A DNA stretch of 64,000 nucleotides. Origin: Isoptericola cucumis. GTDB lineage: Bacteria > Actinomycetota > Actinomycetes > Actinomycetales > Cellulomonadaceae. Under the pieces are notes generated by a model, which was not told where the DNA came from, made no database searches, and saw nothing but the letters and a program-made list of their open reading frames with translations. The translations under genes and the position numbers were made by a program. The stretch covers positions 62,001-126,000 of the forward strand of contig NZ_BMDG01000010.1 of NCBI RefSeq assembly GCF_014635665.1. The letters run 5' to 3'. Below are positions 11,911-49,875 of the stretch, in pieces (the stretch's first letter is position 1; every line of letters starts with the position of its first letter).

Positions 11911-11945
11911 CCCGACCCGCGAACCGGACCGACGGTCCGGACCGA

Positions 11946-11987
11946 CGAAGGGACCTGCTTCCGCAGCGGCGGAGGCAGGTCCCTTCG
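11946..11987. terminator. Bidirectional terminator between the secreted protein gene and guaA
   Basis: A perfect 13-bp stem CGAAGGGACCTGC with its complement and a 16-base loop that can form a second small stem. It lies 35 bases after the plus-strand stop and 19 bases beyond the end of guaA, so it can serve both convergent genes. Confidence 0.8.
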
Positions 11988-12001
11988 TGTCACGGCGTCG
12001 C

Positions 12002-19931: not shown

Positions 19932-19992
19932 AACGTGCGTGCTGACTTGATCCTCAAACCCACGGAATGGGGATCAAGCCAGCACGCTCGAT
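19932..19992. repeat. 61-bp palindromic element, copy 1 (overlaps the DUF559 3' end)
   Basis: The left arm begins AACGTGCGTGCTGAC and the right arm ends CAGCACGCTCGAT. The arms pair over 22 bases with three mismatches. It aligns without gaps to copies 2-4. It lies 30 bases past the ABC exporter stop, and its minus strand encodes the last 12 residues and the TGA of the DUF559 gene. It is the most diverged copy. Confidence 0.9.
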
Positions 19993-20967
19993 GTCGTAGA
20001 CGGCTCCCTCCGGGATCGGACGGGGTCGCCAGCCCGCCGCCGTCAGGAGCGCCCGGACCTCGGACGCCAGTCGCCCGCTCCGCGCGTCGCCGCCGCTGTA
20101 CCGCCGCACGACGGTGTGCCGGGTCGCGATGCGGTTCTGCCGCCGCCGGTCCTCGAACAGCGCGTCCGGCCGCGAGTGCACGTCTGCCCCGTCGACCTCG
20201 ACGACCAGCAGACGCCCGCCCGGAAGCAACCACGCGAGATCGACCCGGGCGCGCCAGCCCGGCCCCACGACCCACAGCTGGACGGCGTCGGGCGCACACC
20301 CGTGGTCCAGGCACGTGATCCGGGCCCACGTCTCGGCCGGCGACTCCGATCGAGGGTCGGAGTCCTCCCACCATGGCCAGCTCGCGCGTGTGCCTCGACG
20401 CCCGGTCGTCATCCCTCGTGCCACCACGAGCCCGGGCTGGTCGATCAGCCCGAGATGCCACGCCGAGTCGATCATCGCGACGGCGTCGAGCCGGCCCGAC
20501 GCCGGTACCGCGAGCGCCAGGGACTCCCCCACCGGTGCACAAGAGATCCCGTCCACGGTCACCGGTGCGGGGACGAGGATCCTGCGGACCCGGACCGGCC
20601 CGTCGCCGGGCCGTGGTCGGGCCTTGGGGAGCGCGACCTCCGCGGCGACGTCGATCGGCGCACCCTGGACGCCGTGCAGCACCAGGGCGCAGACACCGAC
20701 GGCGACACCTCCCGGGTGCGCCAACGGCCCGAGCAACGACGTGCGCCGACGGCGCAGGTCGTACGACTCCGAGAGCGTCGCTGCCTGAACCGTTCCGGTG
20801 TCGAGGACTCCGCGCGCGACCCGGTGCCAGTCCTTGCGATCCACGCGACGCGCTACCTGCCCGCGCGTCATCCCCACGGCCAGGCACTGCCGGAGGGCGA
20901 CCAGACCGGCTTGGACCCGGGCGATCTCCAGGAGTTCCGGCGGCACGGGGTCTGCGGCTCGAGGCAC
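19954..20967 (-). CDS. AbiEi/DUF559-like protein: N-terminal HTH plus putative PD-(D/E)XK nuclease domain
   Basis: 337 residues, GTG start. The N-terminal 60 residues (LRQCLAVGMTRGQVARRV, WHRVARGVL) resemble the helix-turn-helix of AbiEi-type proteins. The C-terminal part has RVDLAWLLPGGRLLVVEVDG, HSRPDALFEDRRRQNRI and VVRRYSG, matching the DUF559/Vsr-like endonuclease fold with D and ExDG acidic residues. Such genes are common in actinobacteria, often annotated as type IV toxin-antitoxin AbiEi antitoxin, but no AbiEii toxin partner is nearby. The gene is bracketed by two 61-bp palindromes, and codons 326-337 plus the stop lie inside copy 1. Function unknown. Confidence 0.78.
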   Translation of the reverse strand: MPRAADPVPPELLEIARVQAGLVALRQCLAVGMTRGQVARRVDRKDWHRVARGVLDTGTVQAATLSESYDLRRRRTSLLGPLAHPGGVAVGVCALVLHGVQGAPIDVAAEVALPKARPRPGDGPVRVRRILVPAPVTVDGISCAPVGESLALAVPASGRLDAVAMIDSAWHLGLIDQPGLVVARGMTTGRRGTRASWPWWEDSDPRSESPAETWARITCLDHGCAPDAVQLWVVGPGWRARVDLAWLLPGGRLLVVEVDGADVHSRPDALFEDRRRQNRIATRHTVVRRYSGGDARSGRLASEVRALLTAAGWRPRPIPEGAVYDIERAGLIPIPWV

Positions 20968-21023
20968 CGCGCCAGCAGACCAGACCCGTACGGCCCCATC
21001 GGATGTTCATCCACAGTCTCAGC

Positions 21024-21084
21024 AACGTGCGTGCTGACTTGATCCTCAAACCGCTGCTTTGAGGATCAAGTCAGCACGCACGTT
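21024..21084. repeat. 61-bp palindromic element, copy 2 (perfect 27-bp stem)
   Basis: The arms from 21024 to 21050 and 21058 to 21084 are perfectly complementary, with the 7-base loop CCGCTGC. It carries T/A at arm position 5 where copies 3 and 4 carry A/T, a compensated change. It lies 20 bases past the stop of the GyrI-like gene and 57 bases before the DUF559 start codon. Confidence 0.95.
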
Positions 21085-21104
21085 CTGGAAGCAGAGGGGC
21101 AGGG

Positions 21105-21716
21105 CTACCTGGGGGCGACGGGCTGGCGGATGATCGTGCGCCAGCGCTCCGGGTCACCCTTGCGCATGTCCGACAGGTAGATCTCGTGGTGGCGGCCGGC
21201 CAGGGCGAGCCCCTGCTCCTCGACGAAGTCGTGCAGGCCGGCGATGGTGGCGGGTTCCGTCGTCATGGGCCCGACGTGCAGCACCTGCGCCGCGTCGCCG
21301 TCGCCGAACTGCTCGAGCCGCACGCGGTCGCCCGCGGGCAGGCCCTTCTCGCTGCTCGTCCGAGCCAGGACGGCCGCGGCGTCCACCTGCGCGACGGCGT
21401 CCGGCAGGCTGATCATCAGGGTCCAGCGCCACTCGTCCTTCGCGTCCACGCTGAACCGGCTCATGTCGTCGGCCCACCACAGCCCCTCGAGCGGCATCAC
21501 CGTGTACGCGTCACCGGTCGCGTCCTTGATCGCCGCCCGCAGCGCGTACGCGAGCGGGTAGAGGCTCTCGACGCACTCGCGGTAGACGGGCGCTGTGTTG
21601 GGGTCGCCCTGTCCGTCCACCAGCAGGTACGGCCGGGGCGGGACGGACACGAGCGCAGGCGTCTGCGTCGCGCGGTAGTGGAGCCGTTGCTCACGCTTGA
21701 GGTCGATGGTCGCCAT
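21105..21716 (-). CDS. GyrI-like small-molecule-binding domain protein
   Basis: 203 residues, a single GyrI-like (SOUL/AraC effector-binding fold) domain. It opens DLKREQRLHYRA and continues with PPRPYLLVDGQGDPN and YPLAYALR, typical of the GyrI-like stand-alone family in bacteria. No DNA-binding domain is present. The family binds small hydrophobic ligands and may act in detoxification; the ligand is unknown. It lies between palindrome copies 2 and 3 and is transcribed on the minus strand. Confidence 0.8.
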   Translation of the reverse strand: MATIDLKREQRLHYRATQTPALVSVPPRPYLLVDGQGDPNTAPVYRECVESLYPLAYALRAAIKDATGDAYTVMPLEGLWWADDMSRFSVDAKDEWRWTLMISLPDAVAQVDAAAVLARTSSEKGLPAGDRVRLEQFGDGDAAQVLHVGPMTTEPATIAGLHDFVEEQGLALAGRHHEIYLSDMRKGDPERWRTIIRQPVAPR

Positions 21717-21763
21717 CCCGGCACCCTGGCAGCCGACACCGACACCGACACGGACAGACGCAG

Positions 21764-21824
21764 GACGAGCGTGCTGACACGATCCTCAAACCGGCGCTGT
21801 GGGGATCAAGTCAGCACGCTCGTT
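21764..21824. repeat. 61-bp palindromic element, copy 3
   Basis: The left arm begins GACGAGCGTGCTGAC and the right arm ends CAGCACGCTCGTT. Four or five mismatches between the arms fall mainly at positions 16-17 and in the inner part. It lies 22 bases past the SURF1 stop and 48 bases upstream of the GyrI-like start codon. The minus-strand reading gives NERADLIPTAPV and TGA, close to the DUF559 C-terminus. Confidence 0.92.
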
Positions 21825-21845
21825 GTCGAGGTTCCGCGACGTGGC

Positions 21846-22775
21846 TCAGCCGGGCAGGCCCGCGATACCCGTGCCCACGGGGTCGTCGGTCCCGGCGCCG
21901 CCCTTGCCGTCGCCGCGGGTGCCACGGTGCGACCGCTCCCGGCGCCCGCCGGCCATCTCGTCGCGCACCAGGCGCAGCCACAGCGCGACCGCGAAGAGCC
22001 CGAAGACCCACCACTGCAGCGCGTAGAAGAAGTTCTGCAGGTTGACGCCGGTGCCGCCCTCGATGACCGGACGGGGCAGCGCGGCCGGCCCGCCGTCGGC
22101 CTCCGCGGTCTGCGCCGGGTCGGACGCGGTGAGGACCACGTAGCCCGAGTAGATCGGACCGCCCCAGTCGTTGACGAGCGCGGCGGTGGAGACGGAGTCG
22201 ACCAGCGGCGGCCCGCCCGGGTTCTCGGGAGGGGTCGGCGCACCGTCCTGCGTCGCCTCGGAGGCCTGGAGCCAGCCGGTGACCTGCACCTCGCCGGCCG
22301 GGACGCCGAGCGCCGGCTCGCCCGGGTCCGGGGAGCCCACCCAGCCCCGCACGACCGGCACGACCGGCGGCCCGGACAGCTCCGACCAGGACGCGCCGCC
22401 CGTGCCGTCGTCCGTCACCCGCAGCGGCGTGAGCACCAGGTAGCCGGAGCGGCCGTCGAGCGCGCGGCCGGTCACCAGCCGCTGGCCGTCGGGCTCGTAC
22501 GTGCCGGTGACCTGCACCTCGCGCCCCACGAGCTCGCCGGGGAACGACGTCTGCGGCGGCAGCACCTCCCCGAGACCCACGGGCGCCGCGGCGGCGGCCT
22601 CCGCGGCCTCCTGCTCGGCGGCGAGCTCGGCCCGCTCGTAGGCGCGGTCCAGCTGCCACACCCCGAGGCGTCCGCACACCCCCGCGGCGAGCAGGAAGAG
22701 CAGCAGGATGCCGATCAGGCGGGGCTGGGTGGCCACCGCCCAGAAGGACCGGCGGGCGGGCGGGCGGCTGGGCAC
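21846..22775 (-). CDS. SURF1-family cytochrome oxidase assembly protein
   Basis: 309 residues with two membrane helices, one near the N-terminus (LIGILLLFLLAAGVCGRLGVWQL) and one near the C-terminus (FFYALQWWVFGLFAVALWL), enclosing an extracytoplasmic domain with GVWQLDRA and VTGTYEPDGQRLV. This is the normal SURF1 layout; the protein helps haem A insertion into aa3-type oxidase. The GTG start has TACGGT 6 bases upstream (leaderless). An Arg-rich C-terminal tail follows the last helix. Confidence 0.9.
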   Translation of the reverse strand: MPSRPPARRSFWAVATQPRLIGILLLFLLAAGVCGRLGVWQLDRAYERAELAAEQEAAEAAAAAPVGLGEVLPPQTSFPGELVGREVQVTGTYEPDGQRLVTGRALDGRSGYLVLTPLRVTDDGTGGASWSELSGPPVVPVVRGWVGSPDPGEPALGVPAGEVQVTGWLQASEATQDGAPTPPENPGGPPLVDSVSTAALVNDWGGPIYSGYVVLTASDPAQTAEADGGPAALPRPVIEGGTGVNLQNFFYALQWWVFGLFAVALWLRLVRDEMAGGRRERSHRGTRGDGKGGAGTDDPVGTGIAGLPG

Positions 22776-22781
22776 GGGACC

Positions 22782-22787
22782 ACCGTA
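22782..22787 (-). promoter_or_regulatory. -10 hexamer TACGGT of SURF1 (leaderless GTG)
   Basis: TACGGT on the minus strand lies 6 bases before the GTG at 22775. Confidence 0.45.
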
Positions 22788-22979
22788 GACGGCGCCGGGC
22801 CGACGACAGAATCGCGCCGGCACCGTCGTCCTGACGGCGCGCCAGATCGACGTCACGCCCGCGGCCCGCCCGTGTCGGGCTGCACCGGGCGGTCCGGTGC
22901 GGTGGAATGAAGGCGCAGGCCCCGGGGGCCGCGAGGCCGGCTCCCCGAGGACCCGACCCCGAGCCGCAGGGAGCGTGTG

Positions 22980-25475
22980 ATGAGCACCACGACCGTCTCG
23001 ACCAGCACCGGCACCTCATGGCGCGCCGCCGGGGGCGCCGACCTGTCCGACGGGCAGGTGGAGCAGATCGACCGATGGTGGCGAGCCGCCAACTACCTGT
23101 CGATCGGGCAGATCTACCTGCTCGACAACCCGCTGCTGCGCGAGCCGCTCACCCGGGACCACGTCAAGCCGCGCCTGCTGGGCCACTGGGGCACCACGCC
23201 GGGCCTCAACTTCCTGTACGCGCACCTCAACCGGGCCATCAAGGCCCGCGAGCAGTCCACGATCTACGTCGCCGGCCCCGGGCACGGCGGTCCGGGGCTC
23301 GTGGCGAACACCTACCTCGAGGGCACCTACTCCGAGACGTACTCCGACATCACGCAGGACGACGAGGGACTGCGGCGCCTGTTCCGGCAGTTCTCGTTCC
23401 CGGGCGGCATCCCGTCGCACGTGGCACCGGAGACGCCCGGGTCGATCCACGAGGGCGGTGAGCTCGGCTACGCGCTCTCCCACGCGTACGGCGCCGCGTT
23501 CGACAACCCGGACCTGCTGGTGGCGGCCGTCGTCGGCGACGGGGAGGCGGAGACGGGGCCGCTGGCCACGAGCTGGCACTCGAACAAGTTCGTCAACGCG
23601 CGCAACGACGGCGTGGTCCTGCCGATCCTGCACCTCAACGGCTACAAGATCGCGAACCCGACGGTGCTGGGGCGCATCAGCGACGACGAGCTGCGCGACC
23701 TCATGATCGGCTACGGCCACACCCCGTACTTCTTCACCGGCGGGTTCGACGGCGAGGACCACGCGGCGGTGCACCGCCGCTTCGCGACCCTGCTCGACGA
23801 GGTGCTCGACCACATCGCCCGGATCAAGGCCGACGCCGCCGCGGGGAACGACGCCCGCCCCGCGTGGCCGATGATCGTCTTCCGCACCCCGAAGGGCTGG
23901 ACGTGCCCGCCCGTCATCGACGGCAAGAAGACGGAGGACTCGTGGCGCGCCCACCAGGTGCCGCTCGCGAGCGCCCGGGACACGCCCGAGCACCTCGAGG
24001 TGCTCAAGGACTGGCTCGAGTCCTACCGCGCCGACGAGCTCTTCGACGCCGGCGGCCGGCTGGTCGACGACGTCGCGGACCTCGCCCCCGCGGGCGCGCT
24101 GCGGATGAGCGCCAACCCGCACGCCAACGGTGGTCTGCTGCTCAAGGACCTGCGGCTGCCGGACTTCCGCGACTACGCGGTGGACGTCTCCGCCCCCGGC
24201 GGGACCGTCGCCGAGGCGACGCGCGTGCTGGGCACCTGGCTCACCGACGTGGTGCGCCTCAACCCGGACAACTTCCGGATCTTCGGCCCGGACGAGACCG
24301 CGTCCAACCGGCTGCAGGCGGTCTACGAGGTCACCGACAAGCAGTGGAACGCCGACTTCTTCGGTCCCGACGTCGACGAGCACCTCGCCCGCGCCGGGCG
24401 CGTCATGGAGATGCTCAGCGAGCACCAGTGCCAGGGCTGGCTCGAGGGGTACCTGCTGACGGGGCGGCACGGCCTGTTCACCAGCTACGAGGCCTTCATC
24501 CACATCGTCGACTCGATGTTCAACCAGCACGCGAAGTGGCTGAAGGTCACCAACCACATCCCGTGGCGGCGGCCGGTCGCGAGCCTCAACTACCTGCTGT
24601 CCAGCCACGTGTGGCGGCAGGACCACAACGGCTTCAGCCACCAGGACCCGGGCTTCATCGACCACGTGGTCAACAAGAAGGCCGAGATCGTGCGCGTGTA
24701 CCTGCCGCCGGACGCGAACACGCTGCTCAGCACGTACGACCACTGCCTGCGCGGGCGCCAGTACGTCAACGTGGTCGTCGCGGGCAAGCAGCCGTCGCCG
24801 CAGTTCCTGTCGATGGACGAGGCGATCGCGCACTGCACGCGGGGCCTGGGCATCTGGGACTGGGCCGGCACGGAGACACCGGGCACCGACCCCGATGTCG
24901 TGCTGGGCTGCGCCGGGGACGTCCCGACGCTCGAGGTGCTGGCCGCGGCCGACATCCTGCGCCACGAGCTGCCCGACCTCAAGGTCCGCGTCGTGAACGT
25001 CGTCGACCTCATGCGGCTGCAGGACGAGCACGAGCACCCGCACGGCCTGTCGGACAAGGACTTCGACGGCCTGTTCACGCCCGACCGCCCGGTGATCTTC
25101 AACTACCACGGCTACCCGTGGCTCATCCACCGCCTCACCTACCGGCGCCGCAACCACGCGAACATCCACGTGCGCGGCTACAAGGAGGAGGGCACCACCA
25201 CCACGCCGTTCGACATGGCGATGCTCAACGACATCGACCGGTACCACCTGGTGATCGACGTGATCGACCGGGTGCCCGGCCTCGGGTCGAAGGTCGCGAG
25301 CCTGCGGCAGCGGATGGTGGACGCCCGGCTCGCCGCCCGGCAGTACACGCGCGAGCACGGCGAGGACATCCCCGAGGTGCGCGACTGGGTGTGGCCGGAC
25401 GCCGGGGACACTGCGACCGCGAAGGGCGGTCCCGAGTACGACGCGGCGGCCGCGACCGGCGGCGACAACGAGTAG
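22980..25475 (+). CDS. xfp: Xylulose-5-phosphate/fructose-6-phosphate phosphoketolase
   Basis: It splits xylulose-5-P (and probably fructose-6-P) with phosphate into acetyl-phosphate plus an aldose phosphate, using thiamine diphosphate. 831 residues, the normal length. Signatures include [19 protein letters not shown], the diphosphate-binding GDGEAETGP, and [20 protein letters not shown] lies 6 bases before the ATG at 22980; a GTG three bases earlier is possible. The next two genes convert acetyl-phosphate, so the three make a complete acetyl-phosphate node. Confidence 0.96.
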
Positions 25476-25529
25476 GCGGCGCACCGGGCGACGACCGGCC
25501 CGCCGCATCCGCACGACGACAGGACATCC

Positions 25530-27692
25530 GTGAGCGCAGCACGCACCACCAGGAGCATCTACATCGCGTCCCCGGAGGGGGACACCGGCAAGTCGACGGT
25601 CGCGCTGGGCGTGCTGGACCTGCTGGTCCGGCAGGTCCGGCGGGTCGGGGTCTACCGGGCGGTGTCCCGCGTGCCGGACCCTCCGTCGTCGGACGCCGGC
25701 GCGGGCGCCCCGCGCGACCACGTGCTGGAGATGCTCCTGTCGCACGACGGCGTCGACGTCACCTACGAGCAGGCGGTGGGCGTCACGTACGACGAGGTGC
25801 ACGCCGACCCGGAGGCCGCCCTGTCCCGGATCGTCGACCGGTACCACGCGGTCGCCGAGCGCTGCGACGCCGTCGTGGTGGTGGGCACGGACTACACGGA
25901 CGTGGCGGGCGCGACCGAGCTGTCGTTCAACGCCCGCGTGGCGGCCAACCTCGCGGCGCCGGTGCTGCTGGTCGTGTCCGGGCACGAGCGCACGACCGAC
26001 GACGTGCGCGCCCTGGTCCGCCTGAGCCTGGCCGAGCTGCGCGCCAACCACGCCCAGCCGGTGGGCGTGGTGGTCAACCGGTCCGGACCGTCGGTCGTCG
26101 GCACGCCGGCGGCACGCTCGCTGGCCGACGACGAGCTCCCCGTCTGGACGATCCCCGAGGAGCCGTTCCTGCAGGCGCCGACGGTGGGCCGTCTCGCCGA
26201 GGCGGTCGGCGGGCGGCTCATGCTCGGCGACCCGGACCTGCTGCAGCGCGAGGCGCTCGACCTCATCGTCGGCGCCATGTCGTTCGAGCACGTGCTGGAC
26301 CACCTGTCCGACGGCGCCGTCGTCATCACGCCCGGCGACCGCTCCGACGTGCTGCTCGGGCTGCTGTCCGCGCACGCCGCGGCATCGTTCCCGTCGCTCG
26401 CCGGCATCATCCTCACGGGCGGCTACGTGCCGCACGGGATGATCGCGCAGCTGCTGTCGGCGCTCGGGCCGCGCGTGCCCGTGGTGTCGACGCCGATGGG
26501 GACGTACCAGTCGGCGCGGGCGGCCGCCGAGACGCGCGGGCACGTCACGGTGACCTCGAGCCGCAAGATCGACGTCGCGCGGGCCCTCTTCGAGCAGCAC
26601 GTGGACGGCGGCGCGCTGCTGGCCCGGCTCGACCTGCCGCGCGCGCCGGTCGTGACGCCGCTGATGTTCGAGTACGGGCTGATCGAGCGGGCGCGGGCCG
26701 ACCGCAAGCGGGTCGTGCTGCCCGAGGGGGACGACGACCGCGTGCTGCGCGCGGCCTCGACCGTGCTGGCCCGCGGGATCGCGGACCTGGTGATCCTCGG
26801 CGACGAACCGGAGATCCGCGCGCGGGCGGCCGAGCTCGGCCTCGACATCTCCGCGGCGGAGGTGCTCTCCCCCACCGACCCCGAGCACGTGGAACGCTTC
26901 GCCGCGGAGTACGCCCGGCTGCGCGCGCACAAGGGCATGACGGCGGAGCGGGCGCGGGAGATCGTCACCGACGTGTCGTACTTCGGCACGATGATGGTGC
27001 ACCTCGGCCTGGCGGACGGCATGGTCTCCGGCGCGGCGCACACGACGGCGCACACGATCCGGCCGTCGTTCGAGATCGTCAAGACGGCCCCGGGCACGTC
27101 CGTGGTGTCGTCCGTCTTCCTCATGTGCCTGCCGGACCGGGTGCTCGTGTACGGCGACTGCGCCGTCATCCCCGACCCGACCGCGGAGCAGCTCGCCGAC
27201 ATCGCGATCTCGTCGTCGGCCACGGCGGCGCAGTTCGGCGTGGACCCGCGGGTCGCGATGCTCTCGTACTCGACCGGGACGTCGGGCACGGGCGCCGACG
27301 TCGACAAGGTGCGCTCCGCGACCGAGCTGGTCCGCGAGCGCCGGCCGGACCTGTCCGTGGAGGGCCCGATCCAGTACGACGCCGCCGTGGACGCGTCGGT
27401 CGCGGCGTCCAAGCTGCCCGAGTCGTCGGTGGCCGGGCGCGCCACCGTCTTCGTCTTCCCCGACCTCAACACGGGCAACAACACGTACAAGGCCGTGCAG
27501 CGCTCGGCGGGGGCGGTCGCCGTCGGGCCCGTGCTGCAGGGCCTGAACAAGCCGGTGAACGACCTGTCCCGCGGCGCGCTCGTGGCCGACATCGTCAGCA
27601 CCGTCACCATCACCGCGATCCAGGCGCAGGGGCCGGCCCCCGCGCCGCCGGCGTCGCGGACCGAGTCGAAGTCGCAGGAGGCCAGCGCATGA
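25530..27692 (+). CDS. pta: Phosphate acetyltransferase, long form
   Basis: It interconverts acetyl-phosphate and acetyl-CoA. 720 residues: an N-terminal P-loop-like domain ([14 protein letters not shown]), a central DRTGG-type regulatory domain, and the C-terminal catalytic PTA_PTB domain beginning near [24 protein letters not shown], with [22 protein letters not shown]. The length matches the large Pta class. GTG start; it overlaps ackA by ATGA and follows xfp by 54 bases. Confidence 0.95.
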
Positions 27693-28963
27693 GCATCGTC
27701 CCGGAGTCCGAACGGGCGAACCCGTACAGCGCGTACGGGGCGCACGGCTCGGTGCTGGTGCTCAACTCGGGCTCGTCGTCGCTGAAGTACCAGCTCGTCA
27801 ACCCGGTGGGCGGCGAGGCGATCGCGGCCGGGACGGTCGAGCGCATCGGCGAGCCGTCCGGCATCGTCACGCACACGTTCGCGGGCAACCGCACGCGCCG
27901 CGAGCTCGAGGTCCCCGACCACGGCGAGGCCCTGCGCCTCGCGCTCGGGATGTTCGACGAGATCGGGCCGCGGCTCGCGGACGCCGGGATCTACGCCGTC
28001 GGGCACCGGGTGGTGCACGGCGGCGCGGAGTTCTCGGGGCCGGTCGTGGTGGACGACGGAGTGGTGGACCGCATCGAGGCGCTGGTGCCGCTCGCGCCGC
28101 TGCACAACCCGGCCAACGTGCAGGGCATCCGGGTGGCGCGAGAGCTGCTGGGCGACGTGCCGCACGTCGCCGTGTTCGACACCGCGTTCTTCTCCTCGCT
28201 CCCCGCCGAGGCGTACACGTACGCCATCGACCGCGAGGTCGCGGCCACCTACGACGTGCGCCGCTACGGCTTCCACGGCACGAGCCACCAGTACGTGGCG
28301 GGCAAGGTCGCACGCGTGCTGGGGCGCCGGGTGCAGGACCTGCACACGATCGTGCTGCACCTCGGCAACGGGGCCTCCGCCTCGGCCGTCAAGGGCGGCG
28401 TGCCGATCGACACGTCGATGGGCCTGACGCCCCTGGAGGGGCTCGTCATGGGCACGCGGTCCGGCGACATCGACCCGGCCGTCGTCTTCCACCTCGCCCG
28501 CAACGCCGGCATGGACATCGACGAGCTCGACACCCTGCTCAACAAGCGGTCCGGCATGCTCGGCCTGTCGGGCGTGAACGACTTCCGCGAGCTGCGCCGG
28601 CTCATCGACGACGGCGACGAGGCGGCCGCGCTCGCGTTCGACGTGTACATCCACCGGCTGAAGAAGTACGTCGGCGCGTACGCGGCCCTGCTCGGGCGGG
28701 TGGACGTCGTCGCGTTCACGGCGGGCGTGGGCGAGAACGACGCCGTGGTGCGCGCCGCCGTCTGCGAAGGGCTGGAGGGCATGGGCATCGCCGTGGACCC
28801 GGAGCGCAACACGGCGTCCGCCGGCGGCGAGCGGATCGTCTCCCCCGACTGGACGTCGACGCTGGTGATGGTGATCCCCACGATGGAGGAGCTCGCCATC
28901 GCCCGGCAATGCGTCGAGGCCGTGGAGCACCTGCGCCCCGACTCCGCGGTCACCACCGGCTGA
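27689..28963 (+). CDS. ackA: Acetate kinase
   Basis: It makes ATP and acetate from acetyl-phosphate. 424 residues with [15 protein letters not shown], the ASKHA motifs [12 protein letters not shown] and [14 protein letters not shown], and [12 protein letters not shown]. The N-terminus has about 20 extra residues before the first strand. It is the last gene of the xfp-pta-ackA unit. A perfect 28-bp palindrome follows 14 bases after the stop and probably ends transcription. Confidence 0.96.
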
Positions 28964-28980
28964 CCCACCGGAGCAACAGC

Positions 28981-29041
28981 AACGAGCGTGCTGACTTGAT
29001 CCTCACACCGCGCGTTTGAGGATCAAGTCAGCACGCTCGTT
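28981..29041. repeat. 61-bp palindromic element, copy 4 (perfect stem, 28 bp when extended)
   Basis: The arms are perfectly complementary from 28978 to 29005 and 29017 to 29044, with an 11-base loop. It carries A/T at arm position 5. It lies between the convergent ackA and gntP genes, 14-17 bases past the ackA stop and 22-25 bases past the gntP stop. Probably a bidirectional terminator. Confidence 0.95.
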
Positions 29042-29066
29042 GCTCCACCGGGTGGCGGGCGCCGGC

Positions 29067-40474: not shown

Positions 40475-40525
40475 CGACGAGGGCCCGGAGGTCACCCGCG
40501 CGGGGTGGCCTCCGGGCCCTCGTCG
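40475..40525. terminator. Bidirectional terminator between the oxidase gene and guaB
   Basis: A perfect 17-bp stem beginning CGACGAGGGCCCGGAGG, with a 17-base loop that can itself pair. It lies between convergent genes, 27 bases past the plus-strand stop and 17 bases past the guaB stop. Confidence 0.85.
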
Positions 40526-43855: not shown

Positions 43856-43894
43856 CGCGAGAGCCCCGCACCGGACCGGTGCGGGGCTCTCGCG
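43856..43894. terminator. Bidirectional terminator between whiB and groES
   Basis: A perfect 19-bp inverted repeat beginning CGCGAGAGCCCCGCACCGG around a single central base. The actual loop is probably CGGACCG. It lies between convergent genes, ending 24 bases past the groES stop. Confidence 0.85.
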
Positions 43895-49764: not shown

Positions 49765-49790
49765 TCGGGTCCCCTCCCCCCGTTCGTCCC

Positions 49791-49831
49791 CGCGCCCCCG
49801 GGCCGTCCCTTCCGGACGGCCCGGGGGCGCG
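49791..49831. terminator. Bidirectional terminator, perfect 18-bp stem
   Basis: The stem CGCGCCCCCGGGCCGTCC pairs with its complement around loop CTTCC. It lies between the nitroreductase stop and the end of the convergent MmcQ-like gene. Confidence 0.88.
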
Positions 49832-49875
49832 GTGCGTCCGGCACCGGGCCGGGCGTCGGGCGTCGGGCCGAAGGC

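Follow-up and report, generated by a model that had tools for sequence, protein, structure and literature searches.

Four palindromes of 61 bp, termed family A, are located in a 64,000-nucleotide stretch of the Isoptericola cucumis genome (contig NZ_BMDG01000010.1, positions 62,001 to 126,000; hereafter the window), and two of them bracket the gene of a putative nuclease (Table 1). The nuclease whose gene lies between two of these palindromes probably has them as its cognate DNA sites; the gene would remain stationary while its product cuts the dispersed palindromes. The whole window matches zero Rfam families at the gathering score; the original prediction, made from the sequence alone, likewise matched the repeat to no familiar element. 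Among the open-licence papers listed by the literature searches, none described the nuclease-palindrome link or the family A repeat. Many related nuclease genes elsewhere lie between different palindromes of their own, and this suggests an undescribed enzyme-plus-repeat system. The best-known enzymes tied to dispersed bacterial palindromes are the REP-associated tyrosine transposases (RAYTs), together with their repetitive extragenic palindromic (REP) sequences.

The association of nuclease and palindromes is not limited to the window. A matched palindrome pair brackets 34 of the 70 homologue genes examined. Among the control genes, 6 of 258 scored, and every one is a nuclease neighbour or a nuclease itself (the GyrI-like neighbour in genomes G000 and G003, each fetched twice, a re-called nuclease of G003, and a neighbour in G019), so the bracketing is unlikely to be coincidental. 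At least one adjoining palindrome of score 15 was observed at 57 of the 70 nuclease genes versus 90 of the 258 controls, and an upstream palindrome of this score at 37 versus 27, respectively. The upstream palindrome ends 55–153 nt ahead of the match start in 32 of the 34 paired genes, and the downstream palindrome is mostly located at the stop codon or slightly beyond it. In the window, 57 nt separate the end of the upstream palindrome from the GTG codon of the nuclease gene, and this palindrome lies 20 nt beyond the stop codon of a GyrI-like gene.

The palindrome pairs tend to be particular to their own nuclease. The best match of the upstream palindrome is its own downstream partner in 31 of the 34 paired genes; when compared within the same genome, it fits this partner better than the palindromes of other paired nucleases in 26 of 26 cases. 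Protein similarity and palindrome similarity are correlated (Mantel r 0.53), with none of 5000 permutations as high. Five genomes of the genus (G000, G003, G008, G009 and G017) have the nuclease gene between family A pairs. In other families of the class, outside the order, matched pairs were observed at 8 of 28 best homologues and at 0 of 18 controls. The chances are about even that chromosomal mobile-palindrome systems of this class are widespread across the Actinomycetes, in which homing-endonuclease-like nucleases, rather than HuH or DDE transposases, would each recognize and disperse their own palindrome of about 60 bp as co-evolving private pairs, several per genome and without cross-talk.

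Family A is dispersed through the genome. A search of all 4.46 Mb (29 contigs) with a pattern and a covariance model identified 15 copies on 8 contigs, all exactly 61 bp long. The coordinates, length and gapless alignment of the four window elements were confirmed, and a scan of the window revealed no fifth copy; the confinement to 9 kb originally proposed holds inside the window and fails genome-wide. BLAST with one copy as the query recovers 14 of the 15 (E 5.6e-29 to 1.8e-9), and the pattern with at most two mismatches yields 23 + 20 matches, compared with 6 + 4 for the reversed control. The two arms covary. In the 15 copies, 92.3% of the stem cells pair (0 of 500 shuffles are as high), and 9 of 27 pairs have changed on both sides (4 of 500 shuffles attain 9). 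An alignment of 34 sequences contains both-sided changes at 16 of the 27 pairs, 102 cells in total. The compensated change that had been noticed at arm position 5 recurs in the 15 copies as U-A in seven, A-U in five and C-G in one, with two unpaired. In addition to the perfect stem listed in Table 1, arms of 31 nt that are 97% complementary were recovered at 28978–29044.

By the covariance model, family A occurs in 17 of 18 genomes of the genus (own genome included). None of 6 genomes representing other genera of the family scored, and a single one did so among 14 representing other families of the order (G028, with a differing sequence). A contig search also gave candidate hits outside Isoptericola, among them Variovorax, Nocardioides and Mycobacterium. 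The per-genome copy counts are lower bounds, because up to about 150 candidates were scored in each genome. A genus-wide set of 128 copies was examined. These copies are 60–62 bp long, except for five of 55–58 bp, and carry the arm consensus RWCGWGCGTGCYG at both ends. Arm positions 3–11, CG(A/T)GCGTGC, are 94–100% conserved except for the A/T position. The inner stem varies across species and is mostly common within one species. In G028, the model gave three rows (L062), the top one being a 61-bp palindrome of different sequence, and this genome contains one distant nuclease match. Matches near 326/6309 and 4025544/4031525 of G009:C1 repeat at an almost equal offset, so the ends of this contig probably overlap.

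Two further families, B and C, resemble family A in having dispersed copies at gene 3´ ends in addition to the copies that flank a nuclease gene. The half-site pattern of family B, derived from the nuclease flanks in G016, G017, G012 and G008, identifies 69 palindromes in 10 of the 18 genomes, and the reversed pattern identifies 0. The gap between the half-sites is always exactly 33 (29–41 were permitted); with three outer bases per side the element measures 61 bp, like family A. Copy numbers are 17, 14, 11, 9 and 8 in the five genomes that encode a B nuclease and 0–3 in the other 13. Family C (60 bp) has seven copies in G008, two of which flank its nuclease, five in G009, one of which has a nuclease remnant at a distance of about 0.6 kb, and one each in G012 and G013. 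A called stop codon lies within 60 nt of 26 of the 28 B and C copies that were read (18 B and 10 C), with 0 divergent calls.

The same 3´-end location was observed for family A. A stop codon is at most 60 nt away in 118 of the 128 copies, with a median of 17 nt over 175 distances. The called contexts are convergent in 61 copies, same-direction in 58, divergent in 5 and other in 4, compared with 37 convergent, 78 same-direction and 53 divergent among 168 neighbouring gene pairs from the window and 20 loci. One divergent call, G003_C8_376159, is probably a miss of the gene caller, because the window ortholog follows SURF1. Where transcription is one-sided, G.U pairs are not clearly in excess of A.C pairs (50 versus 40, p 0.34) on the transcribed strand; the symmetry therefore seems to be maintained as DNA and not as an RNA hairpin, and selection at the RNA level is disfavoured as the main cause.

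The window protein comprises an AbiEi_4-like N-terminus and a C-terminal nuclease domain (residues about 205–315). The fold was assigned by a second look at this domain with VIA-align, in which the modelled fold resembles the homing endonuclease I-Bth0305I and is Vsr-like, and Can2/Card1, TnsA and Bax1 score below I-Bth0305I as less likely alternatives. The protein is a probable DNA-cutting enzyme. The proposed catalytic residues in this predicted nuclease fold, among them E257 and D259, are invariant. The match to Pfam family MTES_1575 (PF18741), 18.9 bits with a cut-off of 38.2, points to a weak relationship by sequence. The N-terminal part scores 20.4 bits against AbiEi (PF13338; curated cut-off 25, exceeded by the homologues L308, L312, L318 and L321) and weakly matches the PADLOC AbiEi models. 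NCBIfam gave no match, Foldseek returned zero matches for the nuclease domain at E 0.001 or better, and a sequence search against solved structures returned none below E 0.5 (top, 3hrl). Unlike the AbiE antitoxin AbiEi, the window protein carries a nuclease-like domain in its C-terminal part. In contrast to the EDxHD homing endonucleases (I-Bth0305I) and the Vsr-like nucleases, including MTES_1575, it has cognate dispersed palindromes, and no intron or intein was seen to contain it.

Homologues are present in 28 of 58 genomes, own genome included, and the nuclease profile finds matches in 176 of the 296 class genomes that were sampled. Plasmids and phages contained no match to the window protein, and none of 13 pattern stretches in viral contigs was confirmed; horizontal carriage was rejected. 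Fragments of nuclease homologues were found at G013:C1:71450-72434 and G009:C1:965159-965521. Since the G009 fragment is the remnant near a family C palindrome, nuclease genes may decay with the palindromes staying. Upstream of the gene at C1:1419636 in G013 (L303), a 102-nt palindrome of another sequence occupies the position expected for family A. Two homologues, L321 (G052) and L322 (G030), adjoin long imperfect palindromes that hold tandem copies of other short motifs.

Table 1. Family A palindromes and the nuclease gene, in window coordinates.
Feature	Position	Strand	Remarks
Family A palindrome, 61 bp	19932..19992		Downstream palindrome of the nuclease gene; covers its stop codon and last 12 codons
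Nuclease gene, 337 aa	19954-20967	minus	GTG start at 20967; bracketed by the palindromes at 19932 and 21024
Family A palindrome, 61 bp, 27-bp perfect stem	21024..21084		Upstream palindrome of the nuclease gene
Family A palindrome, 61 bp	21764..21824		21 nt beyond the stop codon of the SURF1 gene (21846-22856, minus strand)
Family A palindrome, 61 bp	28981..29041		Palindromic across 28978-29044

We infer that the nuclease binds to its palindrome and cuts it, and that this cutting is the cause of dispersal. The home locus would consist of the stationary nuclease gene and the two flanking palindromes. Probably acting as a dimer, the nuclease would recognize its own palindrome by the conserved half-sites, on duplex DNA or on an extruded hairpin or cruciform. 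Over evolutionary time, cutting would give rise to palindrome copies at other loci, and the copies behind stop codons would be those that survive. As a side effect, the palindromes may also act like terminators. Dispersal with a stationary gene would follow the proposal made for TnpA-REP.

The nuclease-palindrome system seems to operate in the manner of a REPtron (a REP sequence with a TnpA-REP/RAYT, related to IS200/IS605) but is not one. PMC8266576 and PMC6006769 describe tnpA-REP as mostly single copy, bracketed by its own REPs and without evidence of mobility, and PMC3733652 reports that REPs located between convergent genes are mostly no more than 20 bp from either gene end. Like family A, the palindromes of REPtrons are extragenic and dispersed at the 3´ ends of genes. 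Further shared features are the existence of several families, each with its own enzyme, and an enzyme gene that is mostly single copy and shows no sign of mobility. The convergent or same-direction 3´-end location is a further likeness, as is an enzyme gene bracketed by palindromes that are also dispersed in the genome, which applies here to families A, B and C. Here, however, an AbiEi-like N-terminus is joined to a homing-endonuclease/Vsr-like nuclease, and the enzyme is not a Y1 HuH protein. REPs are 20–40 bp long with GTAG (or CGTC) at one end, whereas the palindromes here are mostly 60–62 bp, lack a GTAG foot, and were found in 0 to about 20 copies per genome. The Y1 HuH transposase (PF01797) was detected in 0 of the 18 genus genomes, with the control positive in 5 of 14 reference genomes; a Y1/RAYT transposase was therefore rejected as the mobiliser. 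The REP/MITE likeness noted originally (MITE, miniature inverted-repeat transposable element) stands in kind, in that the elements are dispersed, extragenic, of fixed length and with paired changes, and does not extend to REP/RAYT membership. If the proposed reading is true, the REPtron-like way of life arose more than once, maybe without single-strand transposase chemistry. Many nuclease genes of Actinomycetes may have cognate palindromes readable from their flanks, and the numerous nuclease-palindrome pairs would be a ready set for decoding DNA recognition and testing palindrome spread.

A less probable explanation, which we consider unlikely, is that the palindromes are immobile binding sites of a nuclease-regulator, used as operators or as marks on the genome, for example in autoregulation, in genome maintenance or in telling self from non-self, and that they multiplied through ordinary recombination. 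The AbiEi-like N-terminus of the nuclease fits this explanation, as does the conservation of the half-sites above what pairing alone requires, and the near-constant length of 60–62 bp in all three families (A, B and C) hints that spacing is constrained. The copies, however, are located behind stop codons and not at promoters, and divergent contexts are rare relative to the background gene pairs. Moreover, the acetate kinase 3´ site, where the palindrome at 28981 lies, holds different families by species, which looks like independent gain. Among 17 genomes, the palindrome at this site belongs to family A in G000 and to family C in G008. G013, G014 and G017 carry other long palindromes there, G009 and G016 carry hairpins of about 40 nt, and the remaining ten (G003, G010 and G005 among them) have no long palindrome, with either none or a short hairpin.

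It is more doubtful still that the palindromes are bidirectional terminators or mRNA 3´-end stabilisers that turned repetitive, the nuclease gene being merely insulated by two of them. The proximity to stop codons and the 61 convergent calls agree with such a role, and the hairpins predicted for the 15 copies of the own genome with 30-nt flanks are very stable (-52.6 to -101.1 kcal/mol). Unlike intrinsic terminators, however, the family A hairpins are not followed by a U-tract: over both flanks of the 128 elements, T accounts for 4%, 9%, 15%, 29% and 19% at outward positions +1 to +5, while G occupies +1 in 87% and C occupies +2 in 71%. The lack of a clear G.U excess on the transcribed strand also argues against this role, and the other convergent gene pairs of the window use ordinary short GC-rich hairpins. 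Such a role leaves both the nuclease-specific palindromes and the upstream palindrome of the nuclease gene unexplained. The RNIE paper reportedly describes TRIT, a mycobacterial terminator motif that, like the present elements, consists of sequence-conserved hairpins behind genes of Actinobacteria; linkage to a nuclease gene is not known to be part of TRIT. Insertion into the loops of pre-existing terminators, which would leave inverted-repeat flanks, was rejected (overall p 0.10 for 15 copies and p 0.63 for 128); such flanks are striking only in the single copies C1:204730 and C2:422434. Finally, the palindromes could be MITE-like remains left by an insertion sequence that had such terminal repeats, with the nuclease as a passenger. 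This would account for the dispersed copies, near-constant length and terminal inverted repeats but is very improbable, because the 15 copies show neither a target-site duplication nor direct flank similarity (10.1 own versus 10.3 between copies), family A pairs surround the nuclease in five genus genomes, other nucleases own different palindromes, and Y1 transposases were found in none of the 18 genomes (other transposase classes were not searched).

Several observations weigh against the proposal that the palindromes are cognate sites dispersed by the nuclease. At the threshold used, 36 of the 70 homologues lack a matched pair, and about 25 of these have a one-sided palindrome with a score of at least 15, as do 90 of the 258 controls. 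The gene caller and the palindrome score are custom scripts with hand-set thresholds. There is some circularity in the test of family B counts, since its pattern was derived from nuclease-flanking copies, and single family C matches mean little, because the reversed pattern gives one in 11 of the 18 genomes. Family A is commoner in genomes with an A nuclease, with medians of about 10 versus 4 (p 0.009; counts approximate, G013 omitted as ambiguous), and this difference is modest. Nine genus genomes without an A-type nuclease retain family A (about 12 copies in G012 and 9 in G016), so the elements persist or spread independently of the nuclease. Within six genomes, the loops differ by 39–60% between copies and the stems by 12–23%; unit copying is therefore old, or selection holds the arms, whose conservation exceeds that expected of recent unit copying. 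No transposition event was seen, with no base-level empty site and no target duplication in the 15 copies. The full-length structure model of the window protein is poor (predicted local distance difference test score, pLDDT, 47), and a PDB search with this model was uninformative.

The comparison of G000 with G003 around the nuclease gene provides a view of inheritance. The loops of orthologous palindromes differ by 0.18–0.24 (three pairs), compared with a mean of 0.34 for non-orthologous ones. Orthologs of the palindromes at 19932 and 21764 are both present in G003. The former lies 30 nt beyond the stop codon of an ABC transporter gene; 29 nt of its left arm are those of the 21024 copy, and its right arm terminates in the form found in G003, a pattern resembling conversion of one arm. 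The palindrome at 28981 is flanked by convergent genes for acetate kinase (17 nt) and a GntP permease (25 nt) and differs from the copy at C2:190532 at 4 of 61 positions. At the 3´ end of the acetate kinase gene, the palindrome sequence varies by species (L185 in G013, L187 in G008, L192 in G017 and L197 in G014), and this 3´ end is an apparent insertion hot spot. GC-rich hairpins of 39–51 nt, dissimilar to the 61-bp family, are also located 3´ of genes in the window, at 11945-11988, 40475-40525, 43856-43894 and 49790-49832; these are apparently the ordinary terminators of the genome.
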